39,468 bases of DNA from an uncultured Anaerolineae bacterium (GTDB lineage Bacteria; Chloroflexota; Anaerolineae; Anaerolineales; Villigracilaceae), in contig CAINXK010000029.1 of the NCBI GenBank assembly GCA_903854805.1, forward strand, positions 1 through 39,468. The letters are read 5' to 3'. The notes under the pieces are model-generated. The model saw only the letters and a program-made list of their open reading frames with translations, was not told the DNA's origin and did no database searches. The position numbers and the translations under genes were made by a program. Positions 9,386 through 35,680 of the stretch are shown here, piece after piece. Positions within the stretch are counted from its first letter, which is position 1. The number at the start of each line of letters is the position of its first letter.

Positions 9386-10438
9386 TCAGGCATTTTCTTC
9401 TGCACGAATTCGTCTGGCGCCCTCGATCATAGCCAGGTAGCCATTTACCGGTATGTACTCAGGGATAGAGTTACCCGACCCAAGTGCGTAGCCGCGTGCC
9501 GCCGCGCGGAATCTCCGGCCTTTCACAAATACATCTTCGGCAACCTCCGCCGGCGATTTCCGGCAGAGAATGTCTACATCAATACCGCCTAACAAGCCGA
9601 TGCGATCACCATAGCGAGTGATCCATTCATCGAATGGGGCGATCTGATCTTCATTGGAATGCTTGGCATTGATTCCCAAAGCGATGGCATCTTCCATCAC
9701 CGGAAAGATACGACCGCAGGAATGCCAGAGGAAGGGCTTATCCGCGGCTTTGATCAACGCAATGACTCGCTGGTATTGTGGCATAATGTGCTGACGAATT
9801 AATTTCGGCGAAATAAGCGTGCTGGTCTTAAACCCCAGGTCATCGCCAAAACGGCATATGGCGAAATTATCGGCATATCGCCGCAGAAATTCTGCCCAGA
9901 TGCCCAGCATCAGATCGCCTATGCGCACATAAAGCTGTGCATAGGTCTCAGGGTCGTCGGCCATCAGATAAGCCAGCGATTCGAACCCGACCAGGTCCTC
10001 GCTGATCTCCAGAACGCCGTTGCCAACACCACCAAGTGCCTTCATGCCCGCCGGAAGATGACGGCTCAACGCGGCAAACTTCGGCTCGGCGTGCGCCCAA
10101 TAGCGATCCTGAAGCTCGTCCCATGGATAACGCTCAAGGTCGGCCCGGTTCTGGATCGGTCCTTTGCCCCCCATGATCGCGCCATGCCCCGGCAGGATAT
10201 CAGTGATGCAAACTTCGTAAGAAACCGTATCATAGGTCATCATGGGCCAGAAGCGGCAGTAGTGATAGAAAAACTGATCCAGGTCACTTTCGTCACCCTG
10301 ATCAAGGTGCGCAAAATTGGTCCCAAGTATTTGCTCCATGACAATCGGACTGATAATATGTTCGTAGATGGGAAGCCTGGCAGGGCGCCGGTTCGCGACC
10401 ACATCCAACATGCAGCGATAATCAGGTTGAAAATCCAT
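9386..10438 (-). CDS. UroD-like (MtaA/CmuA-type superfamily) protein, HxC variant
   Basis: This 350-residue cytosolic protein has the fold signature of the uroporphyrinogen decarboxylase superfamily: GxxD-rich core strands, an ISPKLIRQHIMP motif near 210-220, then WHSCGRI with His239 and Cys241. It lacks the HemE motif RQAGRY, so it is not a heme enzyme. HxC is the zinc-site motif of corrinoid methyltransferases such as MtaA. The third MtaA-type ligand, a Cys in a PGCG-like loop, is replaced by GSGN (Asn323). The ribosome site AGGAG precedes ATG 10438. It is the last gene of the locus, 65 nt after the previous UroD-like gene. I infer methyl-group chemistry. The substrate is unknown. Confidence 0.8.
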   Translation of the reverse strand: MDFQPDYRCMLDVVANRRPARLPIYEHIISPIVMEQILGTNFAHLDQGDESDLDQFFYHYCRFWPMMTYDTVSYEVCITDILPGHGAIMGGKGPIQNRADLERYPWDELQDRYWAHAEPKFAALSRHLPAGMKALGGVGNGVLEISEDLVGFESLAYLMADDPETYAQLYVRIGDLMLGIWAEFLRRYADNFAICRFGDDLGFKTSTLISPKLIRQHIMPQYQRVIALIKAADKPFLWHSCGRIFPVMEDAIALGINAKHSNEDQIAPFDEWITRYGDRIGLLGGIDVDILCRKSPAEVAEDVFVKGRRFRAAARGYALGSGNSIPEYIPVNGYLAMIEGARRIRAEENA

Positions 10439-10503
10439 TATTCAGTGGCTCCTGGTCTTTATAAAGGTTCTCACCAAATTGATGATGACCCATTTTTTAA
10501 TGA

Positions 10504-11643
10504 TCAGCGATAGAAGCACTTGCGAGCTTCGTCTGCAAAAGCGGAGATAAGCTCTGGCTCGACATCAAAAAAGTGGTCCGACGGGCTGAGGATAAAACCA
10601 CCACCAGCGCCAGCCGCTTCAAAACAACGACGCACCTCGGCGCGCGTCTGGGCTGGCGTACATCCGGTGAAAAAATGAAACTGGTCAAAACCACCAATCA
10701 TACAGACTTTTTCGCCGATACGTTGTTTGGCCTTGGCCAAGTCAACATCACCGCCCATATTCCTCGGGGTGAAGGTTTCCATGGCATCGGGCTCCATCGC
10801 CGCGATCTGCTCCAGGATGGGCATCATGCCACCACAGGTGTGGTAAACGATTCGCTGTCCAACTTCGTGCGCGGCTTTGATCAAGCTGGCATCATAAGGA
10901 GCTACAAATTTCTCAAAAATGCGAGGAGAAATAACCGTAGTTGAAGCATCGCCCCCACCAAGTTCGAGGATATCGTAGCGAGCGCCCGCCAAAGACTGAA
11001 TGAATCCCAGCTTTCGCTGTCTCAAGATCCCAAGCAGCTCATGAACCCAGGCCGGATCATCATAAGTGGCCATGATCAGTTCCTGGGTACCAAACAAACA
11101 GGCAGCATCCTGCCAACAGCCCGGCTGGCCAAAAATATCGAAGCCAGGGATGTGACCACGCACAATACCGCGTTCCCCAAAAGCTTCGGCAGCAGAATTT
11201 ACAGCTTCCACGTCGCAAAGCGGAACCGGGAGAAACTGGCCGATAAGATCAATATCCCGTTTGGCTTTAACCGGTCGTTCAGACACCCAGGCAGTGTATT
11301 CGTTAGCCTGCATTACCATGGTCAGTGTGCCACCCGGCGTGACGATGCGGTAGCGTGTAGTTTTGTATTCGCCGCCAGGCACATCTTCTGATTCAATTTG
11401 CCATTCAGCATTGCAGGTGAAACCATGCCCTCCAATTTCGACCTGGCCCGTTACGGATCGGAACGGAAGTATCCACCGGATGGCATCCAATTCATAACGA
11501 TCAAAGAAGCTATCGTAAGAAGTGCCTTCCAGATATTTATCCAGAAAATAAGACATGACATGGTGGGTGGTCACTGGCAGCCGGTCTGGCACGCCTCGTT
11601 GGATGGCTGTGAGCAGCCTTTGTCTTGATGTCAGGGCAGTCAT
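10504..11643 (-). CDS. UroD-like protein, HxC variant
   Basis: The 379 residues match the UroD superfamily layout: an N-terminal TSRQRLLTAIQRGVPDRLPV, typical of this branch, ELGGGDASTTVISP near 227-240, and YHTCGG with His268 and Cys270. The C-terminal loop reads LSPSDHFF, with Asp356 where MtaA has its third zinc-ligand Cys. No HemE arginine motif is present. The start codon overlaps the stop of the upstream alpha-mannosidase gene (ATGA), so the two are translationally coupled. That coupling ties the protein directly to mannoside metabolism. No B12-binding protein is encoded nearby, so a methyl acceptor or donor would have to come from elsewhere. Confidence 0.8.
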   Translation of the reverse strand: MTALTSRQRLLTAIQRGVPDRLPVTTHHVMSYFLDKYLEGTSYDSFFDRYELDAIRWILPFRSVTGQVEIGGHGFTCNAEWQIESEDVPGGEYKTTRYRIVTPGGTLTMVMQANEYTAWVSERPVKAKRDIDLIGQFLPVPLCDVEAVNSAAEAFGERGIVRGHIPGFDIFGQPGCWQDAACLFGTQELIMATYDDPAWVHELLGILRQRKLGFIQSLAGARYDILELGGGDASTTVISPRIFEKFVAPYDASLIKAAHEVGQRIVYHTCGGMMPILEQIAAMEPDAMETFTPRNMGGDVDLAKAKQRIGEKVCMIGGFDQFHFFTGCTPAQTRAEVRRCFEAAGAGGGFILSPSDHFFDVEPELISAFADEARKCFYR

Positions 11644-14600
11644 TGGGTTGCACCCTTTTCAGGAACAAATCCAGGCTCAAAAACCAGGCGCAGGGTGAGA
11701 ATTTCGCAAGGCTTCAGCACAATTGGAAGCTGATTGTCTACAGGAATCAGCTCAGTTTCAATATTTTCCATCAAATCACACGACCAGGCCTGCAAAACTC
11801 GTCGATCAAAATTGAGGGTTGCGTTGGTGAGACAATTGTGGCGTTCCACCAGCCGCAAAATGACATGCTGCCCATCCTGGGATTGTTTAAGGGCTTCAAG
11901 GCTGAGGTTGGAAGCTGAGCAGCTGATGAATGAATGTTGTACCGCTTGCGAGTCGGCTGGAGCTCCCAGGCACCAGGCCAGCGGACTGTTGAGATTAAGA
12001 GCATGCTGCATGGTTTGTGCAATTTCCCATGACCCACTATGGGGGTAAAAAGAATAGGTGAAATCATGATGGCCCAGGTCAGCCTCAGGATCAGGATACA
12101 CTGAACCCTTGAGCAGGGTTAAACGGATGAGCTTGCCGTGCGCCTCGTGTCCATACTTGCAATCGTTGAGGAGCGATACGCCGTAGCCTCCGTCAGAAAC
12201 ATCCATCCATTGATGTGCAGGAACCTCGAATTTCGCCGCATCATAGGATGTATTGCGATGCACAGGCCGGCGCAGGCTGCCGAAAGCGATGTCGAAGGTG
12301 GCAAAACTGGCATTAACTTCGACCGGAAATCCAACCTTCAACAGTTTTTGTCGTTCTTGCCAGAATACATGCGTCTCGAAAACCAGTTGGCGCGCACCGG
12401 CATACAGGCTGATCCGCTGTGTGATGAGAGAGTTTAGGAATGGCTTCTCCAGATGCAGAGATGCACGTACCGGCCCACACTCATCAACTGTCAGAGTCCC
12501 GGTACGTGGCAAGACAATCTCATGATCCGCAAAACTGGCCACAATATCCCAAGCATCGTATTTACCGGGCATGTCTTCAAAAAGCTGGAAACAATTTCCC
12601 AACTGCCCATCCACCAATACCTCACGCTGCTGCTCTTTATCCCATAATGAGATCAACTCGCCTTGCGGATTGAATCTGGCGCACAGGTACTCATTTTCCA
12701 GGAGGCCTTCAGACACATTGGGGGTCTTAGCAGTCTGAAAGACCTCAGCAGCCGGCCGGGCCAGGTTAAAGACGTGATAACCCACCGATGGAATGACCGG
12801 GAGCTGCGTGAGCAGGTAAGCCTGGTCATCCAGACCAGTGATATGCTGGTATGGAAGCGGCTGGCCATGCTCACCAAACAGCACTGCATCACCGATGAGC
12901 GCGGCTGGCAGGCACAAACAGTCGGCTCGCGGATGGATGAAGGAGTTGAAGACCGTGATACCAGCTGGCGCAGCAGTGCCCGCAGCTGATAGCAAGGCTT
13001 TTGCGGAAGTCTCATGAATCTGCCCACCGAGCTGTGTAATGGAGGCGAGTTCCGCCAGAAGATCGTGAAAAACTTCGGTAATATGCGTGCCGGGGAGTGA
13101 ATCATGAAACTGCGTGGTCAGTAGAGCCTGCCAGCCTCGAGAAAAAGATTCAGCCGGGTAAGGGTTACCATTCGCCCAGGCCAGGGTCGCAAGGATCTCT
13201 GCCTCGCGGTAGAGCAGCTCCAACCGGCGGTTGTACTTCTTGAGTATGCCCTTGTTGGTAAATGTTCCGCGATGTGCCTCCAGGTAGAGCTCGTCGCGCC
13301 AGACCGGCAGATCAGCCTGTGAGGAGCGCGCCGCTATGCTGGCAAGGGCCTCTTCGGCACCGGAGAATTTCAGCGTCGGAATGCCCATGAAATCTGTATA
13401 ACGCCGGGCGCTTTCGAGCATTTCGATATCGACACCACCGCCGCCATCACCCCAGCCATAACAGTACATCGATTCACCCAGGCTGTCCTTTTCGGAAAAA
13501 TTCCGCCAGTGATCGTGGAGATGGTCCGGGTCAACCATGCCGATGAAGTGCGTGGAAGGAACAAAGGTGAATACGCGCGAACTATCGATGCCTTCCCACC
13601 AAAAGGCGTTTTTTGTCCAGGGGTTGGTATCGTTCCAGACGGCCATCTTGGTGGTCATAACGTATTTGACGCCGCTGCGGGCCAGGATTTGCGGCAGCGA
13701 GCCTGTCATACCGAAAACATCCGGCTGCCAGCAAGTTTGGGACTGAATGCCAAACTCGCGCTTGAAAAAATCCTGGCCATGCAAGATTTGACGTACAAAT
13801 GACTCACCTGAGATCAGGTTACAGTCTGGCTCAACCCAGAAGGCTCCAATCACTTCCCAGCGTCCTTCGGCAATTCGGCGTTTGACCTGCTCAAAGATGT
13901 CGGGGAAATTTTCCTTCATCTCGGCATAGGTGTTGGCCATACTCTGGCAGAAGCGAAACTCGGGGTATTGCTCCATCAGCCTCAGCATCGTGGCATGCGT
14001 ACGACCGACCTTACGCACATATTCGCGGTAGGGCCACATAAAAACCAGATCGAGGTGTGAGTGACCAACCAAGTGGATGAGGCCAGGTGACTTGAAGCAG
14101 GTGGACTGGTAGACAGTGGCGCGTAACTTTTGCTGCCCATCCAATAAGCGCGCGCGAAAATCTGCGGCATCTTCAACCTTGGGCGGGATTTGTTTCATGG
14201 CCTCCCAGAGATGGAATTCCAGGTATTGACGCAGCTCTGGAGTGAGATCTTCAATCGAGAGGACCTTGAAGGCACACCAGAAATCCCAGTAGGCATCGTA
14301 GACGGGTCGATCCACCACAGCCAACTCCGCCTGGTGGAAAATCTTGTTGTCGGCCTCGCCGGTATGCCAGTTCACGAATGCTTCCACTGAAATATCCAGA
14401 CGCTCGCCAGATGCTGTGGGCGGGAGCACGACTTCATTGCGGAAGGGGTCCATGCCTTGGAACGGGACACCATTGACCGAGAGCAGTGAATCGCCACCAA
14501 TGTAAAAACGCAGCGCCACATTTTGATTGGCAAATTCGGCAGGCATGTCGATCGACCGGCGAAAAAAGGCGGTCACATCCTTCCCACCCCAAGCATCCCC

Positions 14601-14831
14601 CACCGCAATCGAGCGCCAGTCGCCCAAAAATTCATACTCTCGGGTGCCACGCTGATAACATTCACGGATTTCCCAAGTCTCAAGGGGCATACGCTGCCGA
14701 TAAATCTGTCCTTTGATGGCGTTCAGACGAATATCCGCTCGTTCGCCAAAGGTGTAGACCATGCGACGTTTGTTCTTGATGACGGCGCGCCAACTGTTGA
14801 CAACCTCATTGGCATCTGCTTCGATGTTCAC
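11640..14831 (-). CDS. Alpha-mannosidase, glycoside hydrolase family 38 (large, Ams1-like)
   Basis: This retaining zinc-dependent exo-alpha-mannosidase probably acts in the cytoplasm because no signal peptide is present. I place the start at GTG 14831, because AAGGAG lies 6-7 nt upstream and directly after the stop of the preceding gene. A longer frame reaches back to 14879. That gives 1063 residues: an N-terminal beta domain (about 1-245), the GH38 catalytic domain with HSHLD (His259, Asp261 as metal ligands) and WQPDVFG (Asp371, nucleophile and metal ligand), a helical middle domain (FHDSLPGTH near 590-600), and a C-terminal beta-sandwich. Length and layout resemble the cytosolic/vacuolar Ams1 class. 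Its stop overlaps the next gene. Confidence 0.9.
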   Translation of the reverse strand: MNIEADANEVVNSWRAVIKNKRRMVYTFGERADIRLNAIKGQIYRQRMPLETWEIRECYQRGTREYEFLGDWRSIAVGDAWGGKDVTAFFRRSIDMPAEFANQNVALRFYIGGDSLLSVNGVPFQGMDPFRNEVVLPPTASGERLDISVEAFVNWHTGEADNKIFHQAELAVVDRPVYDAYWDFWCAFKVLSIEDLTPELRQYLEFHLWEAMKQIPPKVEDAADFRARLLDGQQKLRATVYQSTCFKSPGLIHLVGHSHLDLVFMWPYREYVRKVGRTHATMLRLMEQYPEFRFCQSMANTYAEMKENFPDIFEQVKRRIAEGRWEVIGAFWVEPDCNLISGESFVRQILHGQDFFKREFGIQSQTCWQPDVFGMTGSLPQILARSGVKYVMTTKMAVWNDTNPWTKNAFWWEGIDSSRVFTFVPSTHFIGMVDPDHLHDHWRNFSEKDSLGESMYCYGWGDGGGGVDIEMLESARRYTDFMGIPTLKFSGAEEALASIAARSSQADLPVWRDELYLEAHRGTFTNKGILKKYNRRLELLYREAEILATLAWANGNPYPAESFSRGWQALLTTQFHDSLPGTHITEVFHDLLAELASITQLGGQIHETSAKALLSAAGTAAPAGITVFNSFIHPRADCLCLPAALIGDAVLFGEHGQPLPYQHITGLDDQAYLLTQLPVIPSVGYHVFNLARPAAEVFQTAKTPNVSEGLLENEYLCARFNPQGELISLWDKEQQREVLVDGQLGNCFQLFEDMPGKYDAWDIVASFADHEIVLPRTGTLTVDECGPVRASLHLEKPFLNSLITQRISLYAGARQLVFETHVFWQERQKLLKVGFPVEVNASFATFDIAFGSLRRPVHRNTSYDAAKFEVPAHQWMDVSDGGYGVSLLNDCKYGHEAHGKLIRLTLLKGSVYPDPEADLGHHDFTYSFYPHSGSWEIAQTMQHALNLNSPLAWCLGAPADSQAVQHSFISCSASNLSLEALKQSQDGQHVILRLVERHNCLTNATLNFDRRVLQAWSCDLMENIETELIPVDNQLPIVLKPCEILTLRLVFEPGFVPEKGATQ

Positions 14832-14842
14832 GTTGCACTCCT

Positions 14843-17344
14843 TTAAATTGGCTGCTCTATAAGATTGACTTCCGTCCACTCGCTCTTTTGCTGATTCAGG
14901 CGAAATGTCCTGATCTCAAAGGGGCCGAAGGCCAATTGCTTCGATGTGTCAGACAACCTGACAGTTGTAGTTTGTTCCTGGCCGGTTGGGTTGAACAAGC
15001 GGATAAGTAGATCATCGCCGTCTTCAACCTTTTTCAGAGCTGTAATTTGCATCACCTGATCGTCAAGGGTAATGAAAGCCTGTGGTATAAGGGTTCCAGC
15101 ATCTGGGAAAAAGGATAAGGCCATCGGTCGTTCATTATGGACCAGCGCTTCACGATCTACCACGGCCAAGCGTGCATCCAAAGGACCACCGTTGATCCAG
15201 AAGTGATACAACCTTTCGCCCTGGTCATGGCGTGGTAAGTAGCGATCTTGTGGCAGGATGGGCCGGTTTAGGAACGGATGTCCAGAGTAAGCTGGGGAAC
15301 GTAACAGTGAAATCCGCGCCTCACCATAACAGAAATCAGAGCCATAGGTACCATCGTTGATGATCGTCAAGGCGGTGCCAAGGGATTTGGAAACGATAGC
15401 AACCCATTTTTGCGCCACCTGCTCGCTACCATTGCCAGCCAGGGTATCGCATCCATAGGCCACCTGCCCCATATAGGTCGAGGCTTTGTCCAGGCTGGGA
15501 AGCGAAAGTTTAAGCATCCGATCTTTCTCATTCCAGTGGACACGTACTACCACTTCGATTTCTGTGCCTTGTTTTGGAAGTTTGTACTGCAACACAATCC
15601 GCGAATTACCGTAACCGAGGACGGCCTCGACCACTGAACGTACCGCCCCATCCTCGATGACGCGCACGCTGGGCAAGGCGGCATTCAATACCCCAGAAAA
15701 GCGCTGATTTTCCTCAGGTGAGAGCAGGTTGAAACCCCCGAGATCATCGCGAAATTTCCTGACCAACATGCCCCAAGAATCTGGATTATCCCGCATCACC
15801 AACGGGCAGAAGGCATTTTTATCGAGGTAATCTACCCAGGGATCAGCCTGTGCTGCACGGGTTCGATAAGCATCTACCAGCCCTGTCTGGGCGTTGATTG
15901 TAACTTCGAGTTGATCGGTTTGGAAATTGATCACGCCATCTCGGGTTTGAAGCTGGACAGTGGGTTTTTTAGGAATGCGGTTAAGGCGGCAATCGAAACG
16001 ATTCATCTGGGATGGCGCCAACTCAGCGGTAAAAGCAATCCGTTTGCGCCAATCCAAATTAAGGTTGCTAATTTCTTTCTCCACCTGGGTGGGAAGAGCC
16101 TGATCCCCACTATAAGCAGTCGCATCTGTGAAGATGTCTTCCCAGTTGAAGTCGTGAAGCTGAAACTCACATTCCACCACGCCTTGAATAGGATAGGGGT
16201 GAGGGTTATAAACGAGGATCGGGATGCAATCATCGATAGCAGCCGGTTGACCTTTGGCAAGCGAGAAGAAAGCACGCGCTTTCACGCGGGTTAGATTCTC
16301 CAAACCATGATCGATAATGCGTAAGGCCATCTCTTCCGCCGGCTGAATGGATGAGCCAGGAAGAATATCGTGAAATTCGCAGGTGGCAAGATCGTATTGG
16401 GCTTCCCGCAGTTCGACGATTGGATAAGCCATCCAACCCCGGCTCCACGCTGCGACAACCATCTTTTCTGTGGCGTAAAGCTCATTTTCGAATTGACGGT
16501 GCTTCTGCTTGACGCGGATCATGGAGGTGTAACAGCCAACCGCCCAAGGATTGATGTCCATACGATGAACAGGCAACCCGTCAGACCTGGCAGATAGTCC
16601 GGCGAAATACGCCTCAGGCGTAGAATGGCGGATGTCCAGATCGACCGTGGAATTAATCAAGTCGGCCAGATCGGCGAGGTCTTTGCGTGATGGCCCGCCG
16701 CCGTGATTTCCCACTCCCCAGAGCATGAGTGCAGAGGTGCTTTGGGGAGCACTCTTGATGAACAGTTCTGTTTTTTCGCGAGCACCGCCAAGCGGCGTGT
16801 TGTACATGGTGGAAGGTCTTAGTACCAAGACACGCGAGCCATCGTAGCCTTCCCATATAAATTCATTGCCAGGTAGTTTGCAGGTATCCTGGTCTGGGCG
16901 GCAGATCAAATATGAATCAAAGCCACTTTTTGCCATAATTTGAACCAGACCGCGTGAGTGGCCGAAAGAATCGAAGTTAATGGCGGTAGTGGGAGTAACC
17001 CCAAACTTCTCTTGAAAGTAGTTGCGGCCCAGCAAAATCTGGCGGACGAATGATTCGCCGCTGGGCATATTACAATCTGGCTGCAGGTACCACCCGCCCA
17101 TGATGTGCCATTTGCCCTGCTGCACTAAGCGCTGAATACGCACGAAGAGGGCTGGCTCATATTCTTCAACCCAACGGTAGAGAATGGCTTCGTTATGATT
17201 GAAGATAAAGCCATCGAATTTTTCGCCCAAATCAGCGGCAGTACGGAAGGTGCTGATTGCCGCGGCGGCACCTTCCTCCCATTCCCATAACCAGACCGGG
17301 TCCAGGTGGGCATTGCAGACTAAGTGTATGGTGCGATCTGTCAT
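14843..17344 (-). CDS. Alpha-mannosidase-type glycoside hydrolase family 38 (short form)
   Basis: An 833-residue GH38 enzyme begins almost directly with the catalytic domain: NAHLDPVW (His13, Asp15) and NFDSFGHS (Asp125, predicted nucleophile), then GNHGGGPS near 220-227. It lacks the N-terminal beta domain of its neighbour and is clearly not a recent duplicate of it. No signal peptide is present, so substrates must be imported. It probably removes terminal alpha-mannosyl residues of a different linkage from those cut by the larger enzyme, but linkage cannot be read from sequence. The larger mannosidase gene starts 11 nt after this stop, so the two are co-translated. GGGAAA lies upstream of ATG 17344. 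Confidence 0.88.
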   Translation of the reverse strand: MTDRTIHLVCNAHLDPVWLWEWEEGAAAAISTFRTAADLGEKFDGFIFNHNEAILYRWVEEYEPALFVRIQRLVQQGKWHIMGGWYLQPDCNMPSGESFVRQILLGRNYFQEKFGVTPTTAINFDSFGHSRGLVQIMAKSGFDSYLICRPDQDTCKLPGNEFIWEGYDGSRVLVLRPSTMYNTPLGGAREKTELFIKSAPQSTSALMLWGVGNHGGGPSRKDLADLADLINSTVDLDIRHSTPEAYFAGLSARSDGLPVHRMDINPWAVGCYTSMIRVKQKHRQFENELYATEKMVVAAWSRGWMAYPIVELREAQYDLATCEFHDILPGSSIQPAEEMALRIIDHGLENLTRVKARAFFSLAKGQPAAIDDCIPILVYNPHPYPIQGVVECEFQLHDFNWEDIFTDATAYSGDQALPTQVEKEISNLNLDWRKRIAFTAELAPSQMNRFDCRLNRIPKKPTVQLQTRDGVINFQTDQLEVTINAQTGLVDAYRTRAAQADPWVDYLDKNAFCPLVMRDNPDSWGMLVRKFRDDLGGFNLLSPEENQRFSGVLNAALPSVRVIEDGAVRSVVEAVLGYGNSRIVLQYKLPKQGTEIEVVVRVHWNEKDRMLKLSLPSLDKASTYMGQVAYGCDTLAGNGSEQVAQKWVAIVSKSLGTALTIINDGTYGSDFCYGEARISLLRSPAYSGHPFLNRPILPQDRYLPRHDQGERLYHFWINGGPLDARLAVVDREALVHNERPMALSFFPDAGTLIPQAFITLDDQVMQITALKKVEDGDDLLIRLFNPTGQEQTTTVRLSDTSKQLAFGPFEIRTFRLNQQKSEWTEVNLIEQPI

Positions 17345-17432
17345 CAGTTTTTTCCCATAAGTTTAATAATTGCGTAGAATGTGAGTACATGGTTGGCAGC
17401 CAAAAAGGCGGCCCCGTTTATTCGGGCGGTCT

Positions 17433-18497
17433 TCATAATCTGACCGTCTGCTGTTTATAAAAGCCATGCTTGAAGCCTGATTCATACAGCAAGACGATAT
17501 TTTCAACCGGAATTTCAGGCAGGAAGCCCTGGGACGGGCCCAGGATAAAGCCACCATCCTGCCCCAGTATTTCGATCCTACTTTTCACCTGTGCATCAAT
17601 CTCGTCGCGGGTGCCGGTAATAAGAGTCCGCATGGCATCGATGGAACCAGCAAAGTACAACCGGTCTCCGAACTGGCGTTTCAGCGCAAGCGGATCCATG
17701 CCTTTGGCCGTGACTTGGATGGGATGAATACCATCCAGACCAATTTCAATCATGTCATCCAGCAAGCCAACTATACTGCCGCAAGAATGCTGCATGACCT
17801 TGTAACCATAGTTCCTGGCCTGGCCATAGATCTGCGCGAGACGGGGCTTAACGAAACGACGCCACATTTTGGGGCTATAAAGCAGCCCTTGCTGTCCGCC
17901 GTAATCATCACCCATAAAGAAAATCTGCATCTTGTCACGAGCCCGCTCGAAAATGATCCGGTTGCATTGCATATAAAAAGCGCTGGTCTTATCCAACAGG
18001 TAATCAACAAAGGCTGGCGCATCAGACATCATCAGCATGAACTTCTCGAAACCGACCATAAGCATGGCCTGTTCAGAAAACGGTCCCCACATGCCGCCAA
18101 AGACGCAGTGGTTCGGAAATAAGTCCATTCGCTGAATGAGAGCATCGAAATCAATTTGATCAGGACTGGGCCAGGCTTGATATGCTTCCAAATCCTGGAT
18201 GGTTTCGGCATGCGCCAGCGGATGCTTGACCGGGATTCCGCCATAGAGTGTTTTTTCAACGCCCCACATATCAACGAAAGTACCCGAAGTGTAGATATTA
18301 ATGGGCTGAAAATCCTGCGTGCAGGTACACCAGCGGCAGTCGATGTTTAAGCGTCGCAGCATGTCTTCTTCATCAGCTGCGCCTACCTGCCGGATAAGCG
18401 CAGCCAGGACATCCTCGGTGCTGCAGTCCATGAACATCGGCACCCGGTCGGCTGCCTGATGATTAATCACTCTGAGGGTTCTTTCTTTGGAATTCAT
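17433..18497 (-). CDS. UroD-like protein, HxC variant
   Basis: I choose ATG 18497 (MNSKERTLRVINHQAADRVP), which aligns with the starts of the paralogues. A GTG at 18527 would add ten unlikely residues. That gives 354 residues. The superfamily features are GDDYGGQQGLLYSPKMW near 196-212 and QHSCGS with His237 and Cys239. The C-terminal loop is LGPSQGFLPEIP, so the MtaA-type third Cys is Gln323. An unusual cluster of cysteines (CRWCTC) sits at 54-59 and could bind metal. It lies 34 nt after a UroD-like gene and 88 nt before the short mannosidase gene, within the same transcription unit. The substrate is unknown. Confidence 0.8.
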   Translation of the reverse strand: MNSKERTLRVINHQAADRVPMFMDCSTEDVLAALIRQVGAADEEDMLRRLNIDCRWCTCTQDFQPINIYTSGTFVDMWGVEKTLYGGIPVKHPLAHAETIQDLEAYQAWPSPDQIDFDALIQRMDLFPNHCVFGGMWGPFSEQAMLMVGFEKFMLMMSDAPAFVDYLLDKTSAFYMQCNRIIFERARDKMQIFFMGDDYGGQQGLLYSPKMWRRFVKPRLAQIYGQARNYGYKVMQHSCGSIVGLLDDMIEIGLDGIHPIQVTAKGMDPLALKRQFGDRLYFAGSIDAMRTLITGTRDEIDAQVKSRIEILGQDGGFILGPSQGFLPEIPVENIVLLYESGFKHGFYKQQTVRL

Positions 18498-18530
18498 TGG
18501 GTCTCGCTTTTCGAGTCTGGTTTGCACCAG

Positions 18531-19559
18531 TTATTCGGCGGCATGGTACATTGCGACAGCGTTCTCAAAGGGGATGGCGTCAATTAGAATGTTGCAGGTA
18601 CTGAGGATAAAGCCACCATCTGTACCAATGTTGCGGCAGAGCCAACGGGTTTGCTCGCTAACTTCGCTGGGTGTGCCAAAGGTCATCAGTCTGTCCAGAT
18701 CAAGGTTGCCCCATAAACATAGACGAGCGCCGTATTGGTGCTTGACGGCCAGAATATCCATATGCGCGCTGGGTTGAAGAGATTGCAGGCCATCAAATTC
18801 GCACGCAATAATATGTGGCAGCAGGCTGCGAATATCACCGTCAGTGTGAAGAAAGACCGGGACATTGCGGTGGGCTTTGATGCGGCTAATCATCTCGCGG
18901 TAAAAGGGCCAGGCGAAACGTTCCATTGAAGATGGTCGCATAAAAGACCCACTATTATAAGCAATATCATCAGCGATAAGAACGGCATCGGCACCGTGAT
19001 CTAAAAAATAACAAGCACGCTGGATTTCAAACTCGATCATTTGCCTTACAAAACAAAGCATGGCGTCGGCTTCGGTCAGGCACCAAATCATCATATTTTC
19101 CATACCCAGAGCCCAGGTAAGGCTGCTGATGGGACCACCGACTTGGGCCGTAATGAAAAGGTCTTGTTCCCGGCGGAAGAAATCGATCTTTTCGGCCGAG
19201 AAAAGATCGATCGACGGCATACAATAAGCAAACGCCTCTGACGGATCAGCGAGCGCGGGTTTGGTCAAAGCATGGCCGTATTCGCCAAGCGCGAACTCTT
19301 CCCCAAAGGCGCCACGGAATACTGGTCGGCCCTGGGCATCGCCGCCGATGGCCTCGACAGGATAATCATGAACGTGCGCAATATCCGCGCCAAGAAAGCG
19401 TAGCGCGGTTAATTCACGCTCATTAGAATTATCTCCTTTGTAACCTCCAGCATCAGCCAGGGCACGCATAAGTTTAGCCTCGATGGCAAGATCGCCCTTC
19501 GGCGTACGATCGGGGCGTTGATGTTGAATAGCACAAAAGACCCGTTCTCGACTGTTCAT
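18531..19559 (-). CDS. UroD-like protein, HxD variant
   Basis: The 342 residues begin MNSRERVFCAIQHQRPDRTP, the usual opening of this branch. ADDIAYNSGSFMRPSSME near 196-213 and FLHTDGDI (His238, Asp240) mark the superfamily core. Here the zinc-site Cys of the HxC proteins is Asp, but the C-terminal loop gains a Cys (LSTCNI, Cys322). This is the reverse of the HxC paralogues in the same locus. The start codon shares one base with the stop of the upstream gene (TAATG), so translation is coupled. No HemE motif is present. I infer a related but distinct reaction, or metal, from the HxC members. Confidence 0.8.
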   Translation of the reverse strand: MNSRERVFCAIQHQRPDRTPKGDLAIEAKLMRALADAGGYKGDNSNERELTALRFLGADIAHVHDYPVEAIGGDAQGRPVFRGAFGEEFALGEYGHALTKPALADPSEAFAYCMPSIDLFSAEKIDFFRREQDLFITAQVGGPISSLTWALGMENMMIWCLTEADAMLCFVRQMIEFEIQRACYFLDHGADAVLIADDIAYNSGSFMRPSSMERFAWPFYREMISRIKAHRNVPVFLHTDGDIRSLLPHIIACEFDGLQSLQPSAHMDILAVKHQYGARLCLWGNLDLDRLMTFGTPSEVSEQTRWLCRNIGTDGGFILSTCNILIDAIPFENAVAMYHAAE

Positions 19560-20563
19560 TAAATAATCTCATCCCAGGTTTTGAAGACCTGTTCAACATT
19601 TTGCGGGTTGGCGCCGATGCCGAAATCGCACTGGGCGATGACACCGCCGCTGTGGTAGAGCGCTTGCTTGACCCGCATCACTGCCGCCGTAATCTCTGCC
19701 TGTGTTCCAAAGGGCAGCAAGTATTGCCGGTCCATCTCTCCCCAAAAGGTGATCTTCCCGCCGAACTGCCGGCCGAGGGCTTCAATATCCATGCAAAACA
19801 ATTGCGAGTTGACTGCGTCCAACCCAATCTCCACCAGGTCAGGGTAGATGGCTGTGATATTGCCATCGGAGTGCATGAAGGCTTTTTTGCCATGACTATG
19901 CGCCAGAGCAACATACTCGCGATAGAGCGGTTTGAAGTAAGTGCGCCAGGTCTTCGGCGAAATGAGCAGGTTCTGCTGTGAGCCCCAATCATCCTGGAAG
20001 AAGAGCCCGTCCACGTCTGTCTGAGCCCAACATTCCAGCTCGGACAAGTAGAACTGGTGAAGCTGATCGAGCAGTGCGATCAATTCCGTGCGCCTTTCTG
20101 CAAGATCTATAAATACATTTTCGGTGCCCCGAATAAACTGGAGCTGCTCGAAGGGCCTCGGCCCTGTCCCGGCAAGAATGAATAGATCTGTTTCACGGCA
20201 ATATGCGTTGACCTGTGCCTTATCAACGCTCAAGCGCTCGACCGGGATACGCAGGCGATTGGGCTGGTCCCAAGTTTTGATGATTGGCTCTTTGACTTCA
20301 CCAATGATGCCACGCTGGCGATTGATAAAAACGCAGCCCCAATCGTCTGTGTGCGTGCCAATCGCGTAAGGGTCGCCCTGCACTTTGAGAGGCAGACTCA
20401 AGAAGGCAGGCGACCAGGTAATATCATCCGGGTAGCGTTCCTGGAGCGCCAGCAACTGGGTAGGATAGGTCTGCGCCGTCCAGGGCACTGTCCAGGTGTG
20501 TCGTGGAATGCGCGCGGGGCCGGCGTTTTCAAGTGTTTGTCGAACCAAATCTCGTGAGGTCAT
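19559..20563 (-). CDS. UroD-like protein, HxD variant
   Basis: The 334-residue member has the core FFQDDWGSQQNLLISPKTW near 188-206 and FMHSDGNI (His231, Asp233). As in its downstream neighbour, the C-terminal loop has a Cys (IAQCDFG, Cys312), so the pair shares an H-D-C pattern. The ribosome site GGAG lies 7 nt before the start. It is the first UroD-like gene after the transporter genes, 331 nt downstream of them, and may head its own sub-operon with the mannosidases. It is only distantly similar to HemE and lacks its N-terminal substrate-binding arginines. Its substrate cannot be named. Confidence 0.8.
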   Translation of the reverse strand: MTSRDLVRQTLENAGPARIPRHTWTVPWTAQTYPTQLLALQERYPDDITWSPAFLSLPLKVQGDPYAIGTHTDDWGCVFINRQRGIIGEVKEPIIKTWDQPNRLRIPVERLSVDKAQVNAYCRETDLFILAGTGPRPFEQLQFIRGTENVFIDLAERRTELIALLDQLHQFYLSELECWAQTDVDGLFFQDDWGSQQNLLISPKTWRTYFKPLYREYVALAHSHGKKAFMHSDGNITAIYPDLVEIGLDAVNSQLFCMDIEALGRQFGGKITFWGEMDRQYLLPFGTQAEITAAVMRVKQALYHSGGVIAQCDFGIGANPQNVEQVFKTWDEII

Positions 20564-20894
20564 CTGGATACTCCAAAATAAATACTGCCATCAGTTCGCC
20601 AGCGCAGGCAGGCAACGCAGCCAGGTCATGTACACTGGGGCTATTCTTCCCCGTGAAATTTAGGAATACAGTAAATTCGGGTATTTACTCAGGCAGTGTA
20701 CGGCCTGAGCGATAGAACAGATCCAAATCGTGGAGAATTATATTTTGGGGTATTTTGCAGAATATTTTTCCGCAAGATACCCACCAGCAGAGTAAACTCC
20801 ACCGGCTAGCTTTCATTTATTCACAATATTTGTAATGATTAAACCTGACCCTGGATACCAGTTAAATGAATACAATCCAAGGTTTGTTTGCAGG
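20564..20894. other. Gap between transporter and UroD-like genes
   Basis: The 331 nt contain no gene. No convincing terminator follows the permease gene. A TATAAT lies on the minus strand (20737-20742), and may be the -10 of a promoter for the UroD-like/mannosidase block, although no good -35 is seen. The palindrome found before the regulator gene does not recur here. Confidence 0.4.
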
Positions 20895-21725
20895 TTAACC
20901 CTTCAATGAGCCACCCAACAAGCCAGCGATGAATTCTTTTTGAAATGTAAAGAAGAAGATCAACATCGGAAAGGAGGCAATCATCATGATGGCAAACATC
21001 TGCCCGTAATTGATGGTATACAGCTGACCGAGAGACATATAGACACCGAGCGTGATTGTGACTCCATTGCCGGGCCCGAGCAAGATGAGCGGCATGAGAA
21101 ATTCATTCCAGATCCATAAAGTTAAGAATATGACAACCGTGGCAGTGGCAGGGCGCAAGAGCGGGAACAGGATTTTCCAAAACATCTGAAACTTATTTGC
21201 CCCATCAATCATGGCGGCTTCTTCCAGCTCGCGGGGGATATTTTTGATGAAACCAGTGTAGACAAATACGGCAAACGAAAGCAAACCACCGCCAGTAAAG
21301 ACCACCAATACACCAAAATACGACCCGATCAAATGAAAGGTTCTAAATATTTGGACGATTGGGATCAGATAGACCTGGGCGGGGATCATCATGCCAGCCA
21401 TGAAGAGCAATTGCAATCCCTGGGTAAATCGCGTGTTATTACGCGCAATATAGTAGCCAATTGCGGACGAAAGTATGACAATGAAGAAGACTGAGACCAC
21501 AACTAATATGGTGCTATTCAACAAACCACGTGCGATCAAATTATCCGGGCGGCTAAATGCATTTATTAAATTATTGAACGTGAAGGGCGCAGGGAAACCA
21601 AGCGGATCAGCCAGGATTTGCTCCTGGGTTTTGAAAGTATTGACCAGTGCCATATATAGAGGCAGACCGAACACGGCTGTAATCCAGGTGAGTAAAATCG
21701 GCATGGCAACGCGGCTGATTTTCAT
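20895..21725 (-). CDS. Carbohydrate ABC transporter permease (MalG type)
   Basis: This inner-membrane permease of a CUT1-type sugar importer has 276 residues with about six hydrophobic segments. The cytoplasmic EAA loop is EEAAMIDGANKFQMFWKILF near 183-202, the site where the ATPase docks. It forms a heterodimer with the upstream MalF-type permease. Its start shares one base with that gene's stop (TAATG). No ATP-binding subunit gene is present in the locus, so a shared ATPase encoded elsewhere is likely, as with MsmX-type systems. Confidence 0.92.
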   Translation of the reverse strand: MKISRVAMPILLTWITAVFGLPLYMALVNTFKTQEQILADPLGFPAPFTFNNLINAFSRPDNLIARGLLNSTILVVVSVFFIVILSSAIGYYIARNNTRFTQGLQLLFMAGMMIPAQVYLIPIVQIFRTFHLIGSYFGVLVVFTGGGLLSFAVFVYTGFIKNIPRELEEAAMIDGANKFQMFWKILFPLLRPATATVVIFLTLWIWNEFLMPLILLGPGNGVTITLGVYMSLGQLYTINYGQMFAIMMIASFPMLIFFFTFQKEFIAGLLGGSLKG

Positions 21726-22618
21726 TAGTACTCAACCTCCCGGCTGCGCAAGAATACGCCCAAACATGCTGAAATAAATGCGATAAAAATGAACAGAACA
21801 ACGGCCATCGCTGAGGCGTATCCAACTTTATTTACAGTGAAGGCCATGCGCGTGACATAGAAGGCGAGAGATTCTGTCGAACCAGCCGGTCCGGCGGAGG
21901 TCATGACCTGGATGATGTCGTACAGCTTGAACATCATAATCAGGAGCATGACCACATTAACTGTCACGCCGGGAGAGAGTAGAGGAAAAGTCACATTCCA
22001 AAAAGATTGCCAGGGGTTGGCACCATCCACATTAGCAGCATCTTTTAAATCTTGAGGCACACTTTGAAGCGCGGCCAGATATACCACCGTACAAAACCCG
22101 ACCATTTGCCAGACGCAGACCGCAATCACTGAAAACGTGGCCAGCCCAGGCGTGCCAAGCCAGGAGATATTACCAGCTATCCCAATCAGCCCAACCTGAC
22201 GCAGTATGGTATTAACCAGGCCACGCTGACTGTTCAACATACCGCTCCAGATAAAACCGATGACCACCGAACTGAGCACTTGCGGAATGAAAAATATCGT
22301 GCGCAAAACAGTATAGAAAATACCCGTATGGTTCAAAGCCAGGGCCACCATCAATCCCAGGACATTGGCAAGCACAGTCACAATAATGCTGGTTTTCAGG
22401 GTGAATAATAGCGTGGACAAAAAAGTGTCATCACCTAACATGGTGATGTAATTCTGAACGCCAATAAAATTGTTAGTGGCTTTTAGTAAGTTGAAGTTGG
22501 TGAAGCTGTAATACAAACTGAGCAAGAGCGGGAAGACCAGAACGGCCAAATATAACAACACCCCGATGGTCATCGTGACTGTGATGTAATCAAATTGAAA
22601 ACGCCTGAATGGTTTCAT
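21725..22618 (-). CDS. Carbohydrate ABC transporter permease (MalF type)
   Basis: This is the partner permease, with six or more membrane helices and an EAA loop at DAANVDGANPWQSFWNVTF in the C-terminal third. I choose ATG 22618 (MKPFRRFQFD), with GGAAAA just upstream. A TTG at 22657 would add 13 residues of poor quality. It is 297 residues long, normal for this family. It lies 114 nt after the binding-protein gene and is coupled to the next permease by a one-base overlap. Confidence 0.92.
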   Translation of the reverse strand: MKPFRRFQFDYITVTMTIGVLLYLAVLVFPLLLSLYYSFTNFNLLKATNNFIGVQNYITMLGDDTFLSTLLFTLKTSIIVTVLANVLGLMVALALNHTGIFYTVLRTIFFIPQVLSSVVIGFIWSGMLNSQRGLVNTILRQVGLIGIAGNISWLGTPGLATFSVIAVCVWQMVGFCTVVYLAALQSVPQDLKDAANVDGANPWQSFWNVTFPLLSPGVTVNVVMLLIMMFKLYDIIQVMTSAGPAGSTESLAFYVTRMAFTVNKVGYASAMAVVLFIFIAFISACLGVFLRSREVEY

Positions 22619-22732
22619 ATTTTCCAATGCCTGGCTAGTGCGGATGGATAATAACAAGCAGTGAGTGACGGTTTTTAGCAGGAACCGCCAAACCTGTTCA
22701 TCAAATCACTGTTTCAATAGCTTTCGAGCCTG

Positions 22733-24097
22733 TTATTTTGAGGCAAGATCCCAGGCATCATCCAAACGCGCCAACTCGCTCGCCACATCTGCGCCGTTGA
22801 CGATTGCCTGCGCGGACTTGGTGATTTCACCTTGCATACCAGGCGCCAGGGCAAAGTCATTATTAACCCAATCGAATGCATCCACGTTCGTGAGACCATC
22901 CTTGCCAACGTAATTCATGGCTTCTTTGTAAACATTCGTGACGGTCGCGCCATACTTCTCAACAGTCATGCCCTTCACCATCGAGATCGCGCCATCTGTC
23001 TCGATCAGGGTCTTCATATAAGCTTGTGAAAGCGCGACTGCCTTGGCGAATGCAAGTGTTTCTGACGGATGGGCACTCTTTGAAGAAAGGTGAATGCCTC
23101 CACCGACCGAGAATGGCACAATTTGTTTACCATCATCACGTGGGAACAGGAAGACACCGGGTTCGAACTTGGCATTCTTGACTGCATCGTATTGCAAGAA
23201 CCAACTTCCCATGAAGTACATGGCCGCTTTGCCATCACCAAAGGCGCTGTTAGCATCGGCAAAACCAACACCCATATCAGCCTTGTCGAAGGCGCCATTA
23301 TCCACCAACCACTTGTACTTGTTGAAAGCAGCCAGCATATCGGCATCGGCAAATTTGACGGTACCAGCCTTACGCTGCTTGGCCCAATCAGGAGTATTGC
23401 CGAGCACATCCGCCGATATAATACCTTCCAATGTAAACGCCGCAGCCCAGCCACCATCACCCGCTCCAACCATCTGGATCGGTTTGATACCAGCAGCCTT
23501 CAGCTTGGTAACCACACCCTGGAAGTCTGCCCAGGTCTTGGGAGCCTCAACGCCAACCTGTTTAAATAAATCCTTGTTATAGAAAACAAACGGGATGACC
23601 TGTGAGTTCGTGGGAGCCTGCCAGATCATGCCATTGCTGGAGGTCGCCATTGGGAGAATGAAGTTTTCCTCGCACCACTTCTGATCCCAGGGTTGGAGCA
23701 AACCGGAATCGACGAAATCCTGTGTGGAAATAGACTGCATCAGGTCAGGTTCGGTACCGGCAGCAATCAATTGCTTGGCATAGGCAGTCCGATCGCTTCC
23801 GGGAGTGATCAACTTCTCAACGATGAGGCCCGGCACGCCTGAATTTTTCACTCCATCGGCTATGACTTGATCCCAAAAAGTGGCAGTCAGTGCAGGAGTT
23901 TCAAATGTCATCCAACTGATCGTAACTGGGGCTGCAGTTGGGACGTCGGTTGCTTTTGGAGCGTCGGTTGCCTTGGGGGCGTCGGTTGCTTTGGGGGCCT
24001 CGGTCGGCGCTGGGGCCGCAGTAGGGGTTGCCGCTGGAGCACAAGCCGCCAACACGAGTGCAAGCACCGTGAGCATGACTAATAATTTGGATTTCAT
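22733..24097 (-). CDS. Sugar-binding lipoprotein of the ABC transporter
   Basis: This extracellular solute-binding protein (family 1) has 454 residues. The signal peptide ends in a lipobox LAAC, with Cys19 predicted to be lipidated. Next comes a Pro/Ala/Thr linker with repeated PKATDA units (residues about 35-53), then a two-lobed binding domain (LKAAGIKPIQMVGAGDGGWA, FGDGKAAMYFMGSWFL). It captures a sugar or oligosaccharide for the two permeases. Judging by the locus this is a mannoside, though specificity is inferred. The start has an excellent GAGGAG site six bases upstream. It is the first gene of the transporter operon, and high expression is expected. Confidence 0.93.
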   Translation of the reverse strand: MKSKLLVMLTVLALVLAACAPAATPTAAPAPTEAPKATDAPKATDAPKATDVPTAAPVTISWMTFETPALTATFWDQVIADGVKNSGVPGLIVEKLITPGSDRTAYAKQLIAAGTEPDLMQSISTQDFVDSGLLQPWDQKWCEENFILPMATSSNGMIWQAPTNSQVIPFVFYNKDLFKQVGVEAPKTWADFQGVVTKLKAAGIKPIQMVGAGDGGWAAAFTLEGIISADVLGNTPDWAKQRKAGTVKFADADMLAAFNKYKWLVDNGAFDKADMGVGFADANSAFGDGKAAMYFMGSWFLQYDAVKNAKFEPGVFLFPRDDGKQIVPFSVGGGIHLSSKSAHPSETLAFAKAVALSQAYMKTLIETDGAISMVKGMTVEKYGATVTNVYKEAMNYVGKDGLTNVDAFDWVNNDFALAPGMQGEITKSAQAIVNGADVASELARLDDAWDLASK

Positions 24098-24237
24098 GGT
24101 TATCTCCTCTATCTTGAATTATTTGAAATTTGCGGTTCGATTTTGGTCTTTTAATGCTTCTTCGGTATAATTGTTTTGCGGTATTCTCCTTTCAATTTCA
24201 AGCTTTGCAGAGCGTGGATGGAACAGAAGGACATCGT

Positions 24238-24271
24238 GAACAGCAGCGTCAGTCACGTGATGCTGCTGTTC
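24238..24271 (-). terminator. Strong hairpin between regulator and transporter genes
   Basis: GAACAGCAGC and GCTGCTGTTC pair perfectly, extended by a G/T and TCA/TGA to a 14-bp stem with a six-base loop. It starts four bases after the regulator's stop codon. It lacks a T-run on the minus strand. It may partially terminate transcription or protect the mRNA end, separating low regulator from high transporter expression. Confidence 0.5.
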
Positions 24272-24274
24272 TGT

Positions 24275-25543
24275 TTAACCGGACTTCTTGTCTCGTTTGG
24301 ACCGAGGAAGAACCGAGGTTGCATGATTTTCTACCTGAGAGTGAGCCGATTGATTGTCTGGGGATTCTTCAGATCCAGGAATGGAAGAAGTCTGGTTGGG
24401 CGTCAATTGCAGAATAGGCATCGGCAAGTGCAGACGCTGAGGTTCGGAAGGCAGTCTGCCATTTATGCGTCCAACCAAGATTTCAGCAGCCGTAGCGCCC
24501 AAAGTGTCGCCAGAATGAAGACCTAGCACTGACACAAGCGGTGTACCGGGCGACATTTCTTTATGGTTGAAAGTGCCAATGGCGAGGCCAGATATTAAAT
24601 GAGCTTTACGGCCAGTGCAGGGTGGGTCTGAGCACAAAATATCAATCAACGTTTCGGCCACGTCTACATTCGCAGCCAACAAACCGGTGGGCTTGTCGGT
24701 TTTCAAATGATGATGGAGTAGATCATCGGTTGCCTGGGTCCGAAACAAACCAGAACCGCTGGAGTTAAAGGTACTCGGCAAATCTGACCAGATCAGATTT
24801 TCATCATAAACCAGGCCATGCTCTTTGAGGGCACGGCGGTAGCCATTCAAACGTTCGCGGAGACTGGTGATGCGCTGCTCGTGCGAGGGAATAAAGGCGA
24901 TGCGGGTATGGCCCTGACTGATCAGCGCACTGGTCACATCATACCCAGCCTGATCGTTTTCATAGATGACGTAATCTGTAAGAATTTCGGTGTAATAGCG
25001 ATCAACCATCACGAACGGGAAACCCCGGGCATTAAGATCGGAAAATAAGGGTGCATTACGGTATTCGCGCCATGGATTAACGATCAATCCACCCACTCCG
25101 CGCCGAATTGCGTCATTGATGGCGTTGGCCTCATCCTGGTTCGAATTCACCGAGCCAAAGATGTGCATCGGATGACCATGCCGGGCTGCGATTCCAACCA
25201 GGCCAACCAGAATCCCGGAGATGAAGGCATCGTCTAACGCGAAAGAGACCAGGCCAAGCGTGGGTGCTGTGATTTGATCGTCGGTCGATGCCGCTCGATT
25301 GGGTGCGTCGGTGACAAAGGTGCCGCGACCTTGTTGCCGAATTACGTATCCGTCGCGTTCCAGCATATCAAGGGATTTGATGACCGTGATCCGGCTGACA
25401 CCGTACTCCTCGCCCAATTCACGTTCAGTTGGGATCGCACTGTCTGGTGCATACTCACCAGATTGGATACGATCCAACAAGAAGGTGTAGACCTGGTAGT
25501 AGCGCGGCATAGGGTCGTTAGGATCAACTTTACGAAGTGCCAT
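24275..25543 (-). CDS. GntR-type transcriptional regulator with LacI-like sugar-binding domain
   Basis: This is probably a sugar-responsive repressor. Residues about 1-75 form a GntR winged helix (IPTERELGEEYGVSRITVIKSL, then GYVIRQQGRGTFV). Residues about 95-370 resemble the periplasmic-binding-protein-like sensor of LacI/AraR (GLVSFALDDAFISGILVGL, GHTRIAFIPSHEQRITSLRERLNGY in pieces). I choose ATG 25543, six bases after AGGA. ATG 25546 is equally possible, and the longer frame to 25588 would read through the palindrome. The architecture matches AraR-type regulators. A 48-bp palindrome directly upstream suggests autoregulation. It heads the 16-kb carbohydrate locus and probably controls it, though the palindrome was not found before the other genes. 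Confidence 0.88.
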   Translation of the reverse strand: MALRKVDPNDPMPRYYQVYTFLLDRIQSGEYAPDSAIPTERELGEEYGVSRITVIKSLDMLERDGYVIRQQGRGTFVTDAPNRAASTDDQITAPTLGLVSFALDDAFISGILVGLVGIAARHGHPMHIFGSVNSNQDEANAINDAIRRGVGGLIVNPWREYRNAPLFSDLNARGFPFVMVDRYYTEILTDYVIYENDQAGYDVTSALISQGHTRIAFIPSHEQRITSLRERLNGYRRALKEHGLVYDENLIWSDLPSTFNSSGSGLFRTQATDDLLHHHLKTDKPTGLLAANVDVAETLIDILCSDPPCTGRKAHLISGLAIGTFNHKEMSPGTPLVSVLGLHSGDTLGATAAEILVGRINGRLPSEPQRLHLPMPILQLTPNQTSSIPGSEESPDNQSAHSQVENHATSVLPRSKRDKKSG

Positions 25544-25555
25544 CATCTTTCCTGA

Positions 25556-25603
25556 ACTGTAATATAGGATATGTTGATATATCAACATATCCTATATTAC
25601 AGT
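25556..25603. promoter_or_regulatory. Perfect 48-bp palindrome, probable operator of the GntR-type regulator
   Basis: Both 24-nt arms match perfectly with no spacer. The centre is TGTTGATATATCAACA and the outer ends are ACTGTAATATAGG and CCTATATTACAGT. It ends 10-13 nt upstream of the regulator's start codon. Its length could accommodate two dimers. The position suggests repression of the regulator's own gene. Confidence 0.75.
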
Positions 25604-34547: not shown

Positions 34548-34567
34548 TCAGCCTCGATTTTAAAAAA

Positions 34568-35173: not shown

Positions 35174-35220
35174 AATAAAATAACCTCGCATGAATAACAA
35201 TCCGACTGGAGATCGTGGGC

Positions 35221-35625: not shown

Positions 35626-35650
35626 AATATTCTTTGAGATTTTAGAGAAT

Positions 35651-35680
35651 GGGGGAGCCTGGAAAATTCCAGGCTCCCCC
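35651..35680 (-). terminator. Very stable hairpin between TasA-like and SipW-type genes
   Basis: GGGGGAGCCTGGAA and TTCCAGGCTCCCCC form a 14-bp G/C-rich stem around two A residues. It lies 18 nt after the stop of the first TasA-like gene, with no T-run. It may be an attenuator or mRNA-protecting hairpin that keeps the structural protein in excess over its peptidase. Confidence 0.6.

Follow-up and report, generated by a model that had tools for sequence, protein, structure and literature searches.

A run of eleven genes in the genome of an uncultured Anaerolineae bacterium associates five proteins sharing the fold of uroporphyrinogen decarboxylase (UroD), which we name U1 to U5, with two alpha-mannosidases of glycoside hydrolase family 38 (GH38), M1 and M2, and with a sugar importer. 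The genes, all open and all on the minus strand, span positions 9386-25588 of contig CAINXK010000029.1 (assembly GCA_903854805.1), the whole 39,468-nucleotide stretch of which is called the window below. With a confidence that falls just short of even, we propose that O-methylated mannosides are imported, cut by the GH38 enzymes and demethylated by U1-U5 via a corrinoid protein encoded elsewhere; we infer a methyl-mannoside as the substrate of U1-U5.

The neighbourhood is conserved beyond this genome, as the original prediction supposed. Searching genome contigs with a profile derived from an alignment of U4 gave 53 confirmed loci among its best 80 stretches, and more relatives may exist. They belong to Planctomycetes, Clostridia, Lachnospiraceae, Spirochaetes, Propionibacteriaceae, Chloroflexi/Anaerolineae, Armatimonadota, several archaea and others. 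In 22 of the 53 the retrieved stretch includes GH38, by a weak match of 74 bits in one case (L001). When this one is left out, a clear GH38 gene remains in 21 of 53 loci, for at most 2.19 expected if the highest GH38 density of 23 genomes is applied to every genome (P=6e-16); among the 29 closest loci the count is 17, for 1.29 expected (P=2e-16). Counting matches of at least 200 bits, 15 of the 53 loci contain two or more of the five lineages, with four lineages in L003 (Sedimentisphaerales) and L014 (Clostridiales Family XIII), and three in L005 (Propionibacteriaceae), L016 and L022. ABC sugar permeases are likewise found in 15 of 53. The L014 locus, where U1, further genes, two permeases, U4, U5, U2, an ABC ATPase, a protein of the HAD family, GH38 and mannose-6-phosphate isomerase follow one another, reads as a fuller version of that of the window.

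Mannose-6-phosphate isomerase genes adjoin GH38 and UroD genes in related loci and, together with GH38 and the importer, point to mannosides. Among 84 neighbour proteins scanned (out of 120 picked, the other 36 being mostly assigned already, a few not), four were mannose-6-phosphate isomerases, six HAD proteins, two D-lyxose isomerases and four members of GH95; no corrinoid or pterin-binding family was among the 25 of 74 families listed for these proteins. The HAD-like protein lies directly before or near GH38 (L014:15048-16121, L022:4840-5817, L004:10989-12017, L006:7023-8003, L008:5942-6934 and L023:5191-6183), the last five being 48-56% identical to that of L014, and it may act on a phosphorylated mannoside.

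The assignment of the mannosidases themselves is straightforward. Both M1 and M2 match the four GH38 Pfam domains and, aligned with solved GH38 enzymes, keep the motifs AHLD/SHLD, FDSFG/PDVFG and FHD, which we take to hold the metal-ligand histidine and aspartate residues and the nucleophile aspartate. The closest solved structure of M1 is Ams1 (6lz1, 415.6 bits), while M2 is shorter and more distant from solved structures (7ufs, 169.1 bits). No signal peptide was seen by eye in either translation, and the two enzymes are therefore predicted to be cytosolic. Viral relatives of M2 were also looked for, and none appeared with the six peptide patterns used.

As for U1-U5, all match Pfam family PF01208 (46.7-87.5 bits, cut-off 23.9) with a mutual identity of 17-26%, and they represent five old lineages. 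The N-terminal arginine motif of HemE, RQAGR, is present in the HemE reference of a related genome and, by eye, absent from all five translations. On the NCBIfam HemE equivalog U2 and U4 reach 20.2 and 23.7 bits for a cut-off of 303, U1, U3 and U5 having no listed match, and the RQAGR-bearing HemE row falls outside their clade in the trees described below. A HemE function was rejected on score, motif and tree, and the claim that these are UroD folds devoid of the HemE signature stands. With 20.8-76.7 bits on the NCBIfam families of the MtaA/MtbA/CmuA type, where cut-offs range between 235 and 600, they differ in family scores from MtaA/MtbA/MtsA, Mlp and CmuA too, and also in the residues of the metal site. 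The His-Cys-Cys zinc site of the MtaA-type S-methyltransferases is in none of them: the first two residues are His and Cys in U1-U3, and His and Asp in U4 and U5, while the third position is, from U1 to U5, N, D, Q, N and D, with a Cys one residue earlier in U4 and U5. Metal sites other than His-Cys-Cys have been linked, in the sections of the account available to us, to O- rather than S-methyltransferases (PMC10418091), and that of U1-U5 points to oxygen-bound methyl groups.

Structure models of U4 and U3 are confident UroD/MtaA folds (pLDDT 95.2 and 93.4), and the conserved His-x-Cys/Asp, the putative metal site, aligns with that of MtaA; the original prediction, which a lack of any metal or substrate pocket in such models would have refuted, is not contradicted by them. 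Pfam is the basis of the fold in U1, U2 and U5. The kinship of these proteins to methyl-transfer enzymes, as stated in that prediction, is supported. Three trees of 58, 68 and 66 rows were built with HemE as the outgroup, from hand-picked rows where MtaA is represented by MtaA-like proteins only and where the characterised O-demethylases MtvB, OdmB, VdmB, MtoB and CdmB are left out. U1-U5, together with natural fusions of UroD and corrinoid domains, form one clade in each of them (support 100/99, 99/98 and 99/98), with the HemE, CmuA, MtaA-like, Mlp and HVHG rows outside; one fusion protein is represented by its wrong part in the 68-row tree and by the correct part in the 66-row tree. The U1, U2, U4, U5 and fusion groups each occupy one side of a branch with support of 100/99 or better, U3 ranging from 93/83 to 99/94. 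The fusions change place within the clade, next to U4 (91/84) in the 58-row tree and next to U1 (91/80) in the 66-row tree, where a group made of L040, L041 and L048 is sister to U4 (100/98).

The clade is linked to corrinoids by this sister group, by the fusions and, at the level of whole genomes, by RACE and corrinoid-domain genes. In two Syntrophomonadaceae loci (L040 and L041) the U4 sister gene directly adjoins a gene for RACE, the reactivator of corrinoid proteins, and in a deltaproteobacterial locus (L048) it stands between RACE and two Mlp-type UroD genes, which are themselves preceded by a corrinoid gene; elsewhere among the 24 U4 loci that are not in the closest set, a corrinoid gene is present in L051 and a weak corrinoid match in L047. 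Within the clade lies a spirochaete protein of 621 residues (L116), where a UroD domain with H-S-D-G is followed by a corrinoid domain, and the same three Pfam domains are found in 118 of the best 120 of its 775 matches. In a member of the Anaerolineae class (G316) two proteins are built the other way round, with the corrinoid domain first and the UroD domain second, and have ABC transport genes and DeoR regulators nearby; an M2 relative next to UroD genes (L092) occurs in the same genome. Two corrinoid-UroD fusions of different lineages lie within 9 kb at L141:7346-9130 and L141:13952-15793, near ABC transport genes. Gene context assigns the sister group of U4 to corrinoid methyl transfer, and kinship extends this to the other members of the clade.

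At the scale of genomes, the 23 that hold 24 of the 53 loci all have RACE (PF14574), as against 1 of 14 control genomes, these being mostly not anaerobes of the same groups. All 23 also have the corrinoid domain PF02607, with 1-7 matches each, MetH included; Christensenella sp. Marseille-P2438 (G018), a cultivated relative, has a single PF02607 and a single PF14574 match. In the family of Robinsoniella peoriensis (220 genomes, 66 of them with UroD matches), RACE is present in 41 of the 41 genomes with at least three UroD matches, in 12 of 25 with one or two and in 77 of 154 with none (p=2.8e-11 for the first class against the rest, 89 of 179, and p=5e-11 against genomes with none). Corrinoid and RACE genes lie at most 5 kb apart in 12 of the 23 genomes. 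Eleven such loci were opened in 10 of these 12 genomes: nine have no UroD gene on their stretch of 8-15 kb (one of them, L111, ends 0.4 kb past the corrinoid gene), and the other two are an Mlp-type cluster (L120) and a pair with an MtaA-like neighbour (L121). No B12-binding gene had been seen in the window, nor any MtrH-like gene, which had led to the claim that the partners lie elsewhere. As far as relatives show, this is supported: purpose-built profiles give no match at E<=1 in the window for either corrinoid proteins or RACE, Pfam scans of 20 of its larger reading frames, the sole search for them, show no MtrH-like gene, and the corrinoid domain and RACE occur in all 23 genomes with U4 relatives.

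Many facts weigh against this proposal, and they bear on the substrate first. GH38 is absent from 31 of the 53 U4 loci, a number of which are ended by contig ends, and it is absent from a whole genome assembly (G005) that has U4, U5 and U1. A less probable reading, in line with this, is that U1-U5 are corrinoid-dependent methyltransferases whose donor is something other than a sugar ether: GH38 might, for example, release an aglycone bearing methoxy groups, a methyl glycoside or some methylated compound that is not a sugar. The evidence of clade, fusions and RACE would apply equally to such a donor, and the known UroD-fold demethylases take methoxy-aromatics and haloalkanes according to the accessible portion of their description (PMC13222342). 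However, several UroD lineages co-occur with GH38, mannose-6-phosphate isomerase and sugar importers, a pattern more easily reconciled with a sugar methylated at several positions than with a single aglycone.

Other facts bear on the reaction. The link to corrinoids is weakened by the window itself and by the fetched stretches of the 29 closest U4 loci (L001-L029), where there is neither a corrinoid nor a RACE gene. PF02607, being also present in 9 of the 14 control genomes, gives weak support, and pterin-binding PF00809, present in all 23 genomes, is uninformative because 13 of the 14 controls have it. RACE is common in the background: in the Anaerolineae class, that of G022, 282 of 396 genomes have it, as do 77 of the 154 R. 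peoriensis family members with no UroD match at all. Conversely, 13 of the 66 UroD-positive genomes of that family are without RACE, all of them with one or two UroD matches. We considered whether these might refute the link and set this aside, since the three opened among the 13 (L131-L133) carry a different UroD-fold protein, with H-V-H-G or H-A-H-G and Pro-Gly-Cys, which forms a separate group outside the clade. To this must be added that U2 joins the clade solely through the position of the root on the HemE side, and that the model of U3 is closer to UroD than to MtaA by a small margin. Finally, UroD matches number from 4 to at least 57 per genome (all these counts being lower bounds), for the 1-7 corrinoid domains: either one corrinoid protein is widely shared, or many UroD-like proteins have another role. 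Slightly less probable than a different methyl donor, but consistent with these figures, would be that U1-U5 are lyases, isomerases or decarboxylases of sugar derivatives built on the UroD fold, the co-occurrence with corrinoid genes reflecting an anaerobic life style. Against this stand the proteins naturally fused to a corrinoid domain, which two of the clade's lineages include, the RACE or corrinoid genes beside the U4 sister group, and RACE in every UroD-rich genome of the R. peoriensis family.

A last group of facts bears on the association itself. A U4 relative at E<1e-70 is found in only 2 of 396 Anaerolineae-class genomes; in the four genomes of this class that have the nearest relatives of M2 (58-64%), on contigs of 4-10 kb, UroD neighbours are seen in one; and when the surroundings of M2 relatives in the 396 genomes (30 loci, about 1.5 kb of flank) are searched with U1-U5, a UroD gene appears in one (L082). 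The association between GH38 and UroD is seen more from the UroD side than from the GH38 side. The UroD-like genes might even be passengers with no role in an otherwise ordinary pathway of alpha-mannoside utilisation, for which importer and GH38 suffice and which the rarity just mentioned would suit. This view is nevertheless very improbable, because GH38 is accompanied by these UroD lineages in Planctomycetota, Bacillota, Spirochaetota and archaea as well, and because reading frames show short overlaps in the window.

The pathway that we favour, demethylation of imported mannosides, would make the locus a catabolic operon for mannosides bearing methyl ethers. The binding protein and the two permeases, as their families indicate, would import an oligosaccharide, probably energised by a shared ATPase encoded elsewhere; no ABC ATPase gene is among the eleven. 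In the cytosol M1 and M2 would hydrolyse alpha-mannosidic bonds, family and motifs being clear and the substrate presumed. U1-U5 would then act as corrinoid-dependent O-methyltransferases, each dealing with another methyl position or sugar context: the methoxy oxygen would bind at a metal held by His and Cys or Asp, and the methyl group would pass to the Co(I) of a corrinoid protein, a reaction suggested by the fold, by these residues, by the clade and by the genes that adjoin relatives. Two genes located elsewhere, forming a unit of the kind seen in relatives, would encode this corrinoid protein and its reactivator RACE, and the pair might serve many UroD-like enzymes. The methyl group would presumably end on a folate-type carrier (PF00809 is no proof of this, the family also comprising enzymes of folate synthesis), while bare mannose would enter central metabolism, for which some related loci have mannose-6-phosphate isomerase genes. 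A shared hub protein would most simply account for the gap between the numbers of UroD and corrinoid genes, which also fits a non-corrinoid role for a part of the former. Extending this, and here our confidence is distinctly lower than for the locus itself, a B12 system of the hub-and-spoke type may exist, where one stand-alone corrinoid protein with RACE serves dozens of UroD-fold O-demethylases located in glycan operons, allowing anaerobes to demethylate mannosides and other methyl-ether sugars, and to use both sugar and methyl.

Table 1. Genes of the locus, in order from the regulator down to U1.
Feature	Position	Strand	Basis
GntR-type DNA-binding domain and LacI-type sugar sensor, 437 aa, likely regulator	24275..25588	-	Pfam PF00392, PF13377, PF00532
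ABC sugar-binding protein SBP_bac_1, 454 aa	22733..24097	-	Pfam PF01547, 79.8 bits
ABC permease A, 310 aa	21725..22657	-	Pfam PF00528
ABC permease B, 276 aa	20895..21725	-	Pfam PF00528
U5, UroD-fold protein, 334 aa, metal-site residues H-x-D ... C-D	19559..20563	-	Pfam PF01208; lineage motif; trees
U4, UroD-fold protein, 342 aa, H-x-D ... C-N	18531..19559	-	Pfam PF01208; model pLDDT 95.2
U3, UroD-fold protein, 364 aa, H-x-C ... Q	17433..18527	-	Pfam PF01208; AlphaFold2 model pLDDT 93.4
M2, GH38 alpha-mannosidase, 833 aa	14843..17344	-	Pfam GH38 N, mid, C, C2; PDB 7ufs 169.1 bits
M1, GH38 alpha-mannosidase, 1079 aa	11640..14879	-	Pfam GH38 domains; PDB 6lz1 (Ams1) 415.6 bits
U2, UroD-fold protein, 379 aa, H-x-C ... 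D	10504..11643	-	Pfam PF01208; lineage motif; tree
U1, UroD-fold protein, 350 aa, H-x-C ... N	9386..10438	-	Pfam PF01208; lineage motif; tree

The layout of the genes (Table 1) confirms the run in a single direction that had been described for regulator, importer, UroD-like and GH38 genes. Overlaps of 1-4 nt between UroD-like and mannosidase genes had also been claimed; this holds for one junction, U2/M1 (4 nt), and fails as a general statement. U4 and U5 overlap by 1 nt, as do the two permease genes, and M1 and M2 by 37 nt with the GTG start as listed, while gaps of 3 nt separate U3 from U4, 65 nt U1 from U2, 88 nt M2 from U3 and 331 nt U5 from the permease gene. The window has a G+C content of 48.7% and no tRNA, and a Chloroflexota host of the Anaerolineae type is suggested by the composition of its genes and by the linker in the binding protein; a plasmid origin was considered and discarded, the 16-kb stretch being without a near match in 72,556 plasmid records. 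Several neighbours deserve mention. At 31645-33102, 6 kb upstream of the regulator, a protein of 485 residues matches the C-terminal domains of L-fucose and L-arabinose isomerases and could be a sugar isomerase. At 33726-36312 two signal-peptidase-like proteins alternate with two exported-looking proteins of about 200 residues (Pfam matches, scanned for 33726-34547, are weak), an arrangement which to us resembles SipW/TasA operons. Sensor histidine kinases with multiple PAS domains are encoded at 5232-8810 and 28941-31040, with a repeat-rich start at 7674-8150.

Glycans can be shielded against digestion by methyl ethers. If U1-U5 are indeed corrinoid demethylases, anaerobes of the gut, digesters, sediments and hot springs would possess their own route for removing these groups, and a function could be given to many of the genes at present annotated as uroporphyrinogen decarboxylase. 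We found no description of UroD-like or corrinoid demethylation in glycan settings in the open-licence literature, which is weak evidence of novelty as subscription journals are mostly outside this coverage. The same literature gave no description of a GH38 system with UroD-fold partners, and we know of none: M1 and M2 belong to GH38, like Ams1. Among described systems, close ones are the O-demethylases and dehalogenases of the UroD superfamily that work with a corrinoid protein and a second methyltransferase, in so far as the available parts of two articles describe them (PMC13222342; PMC10418091). U1-U5 resemble MtvB, OdmB, VdmB, MtoB and CdmB in belonging to this superfamily, in a metal site that is not His-Cys-Cys, and in that the U4 sister group and the fused members of the clade adjoin or contain corrinoid and RACE parts. 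They differ in context: the substrates there, in the portion of the source at hand, are methoxy-aromatics and haloalkanes (PMC13222342), whereas the neighbours here are GH38 and a sugar importer. A corrinoid hub common to many demethylases would, if true, also be an unusual layout when compared with clusters such as cdmBCA, where demethylase, corrinoid protein and second methyltransferase stand together, although some homologues of the cdm system have their partners only elsewhere in the genome, as that same partial text has it (PMC13222342). The sole enzymatic removal of a sugar methyl ether that we found, in an article of which a part was accessible, is the aerobic O-demethylation of 6-O-methyl-D-galactose by a cytochrome P450 of marine bacteria (PMC10033563). 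The task is the same, removal of an O-methyl group from a sugar; the chemistry involves a P450 and formaldehyde in that system, according to the same extract, whereas a corrinoid-type methyl transfer is what we propose for the present locus.

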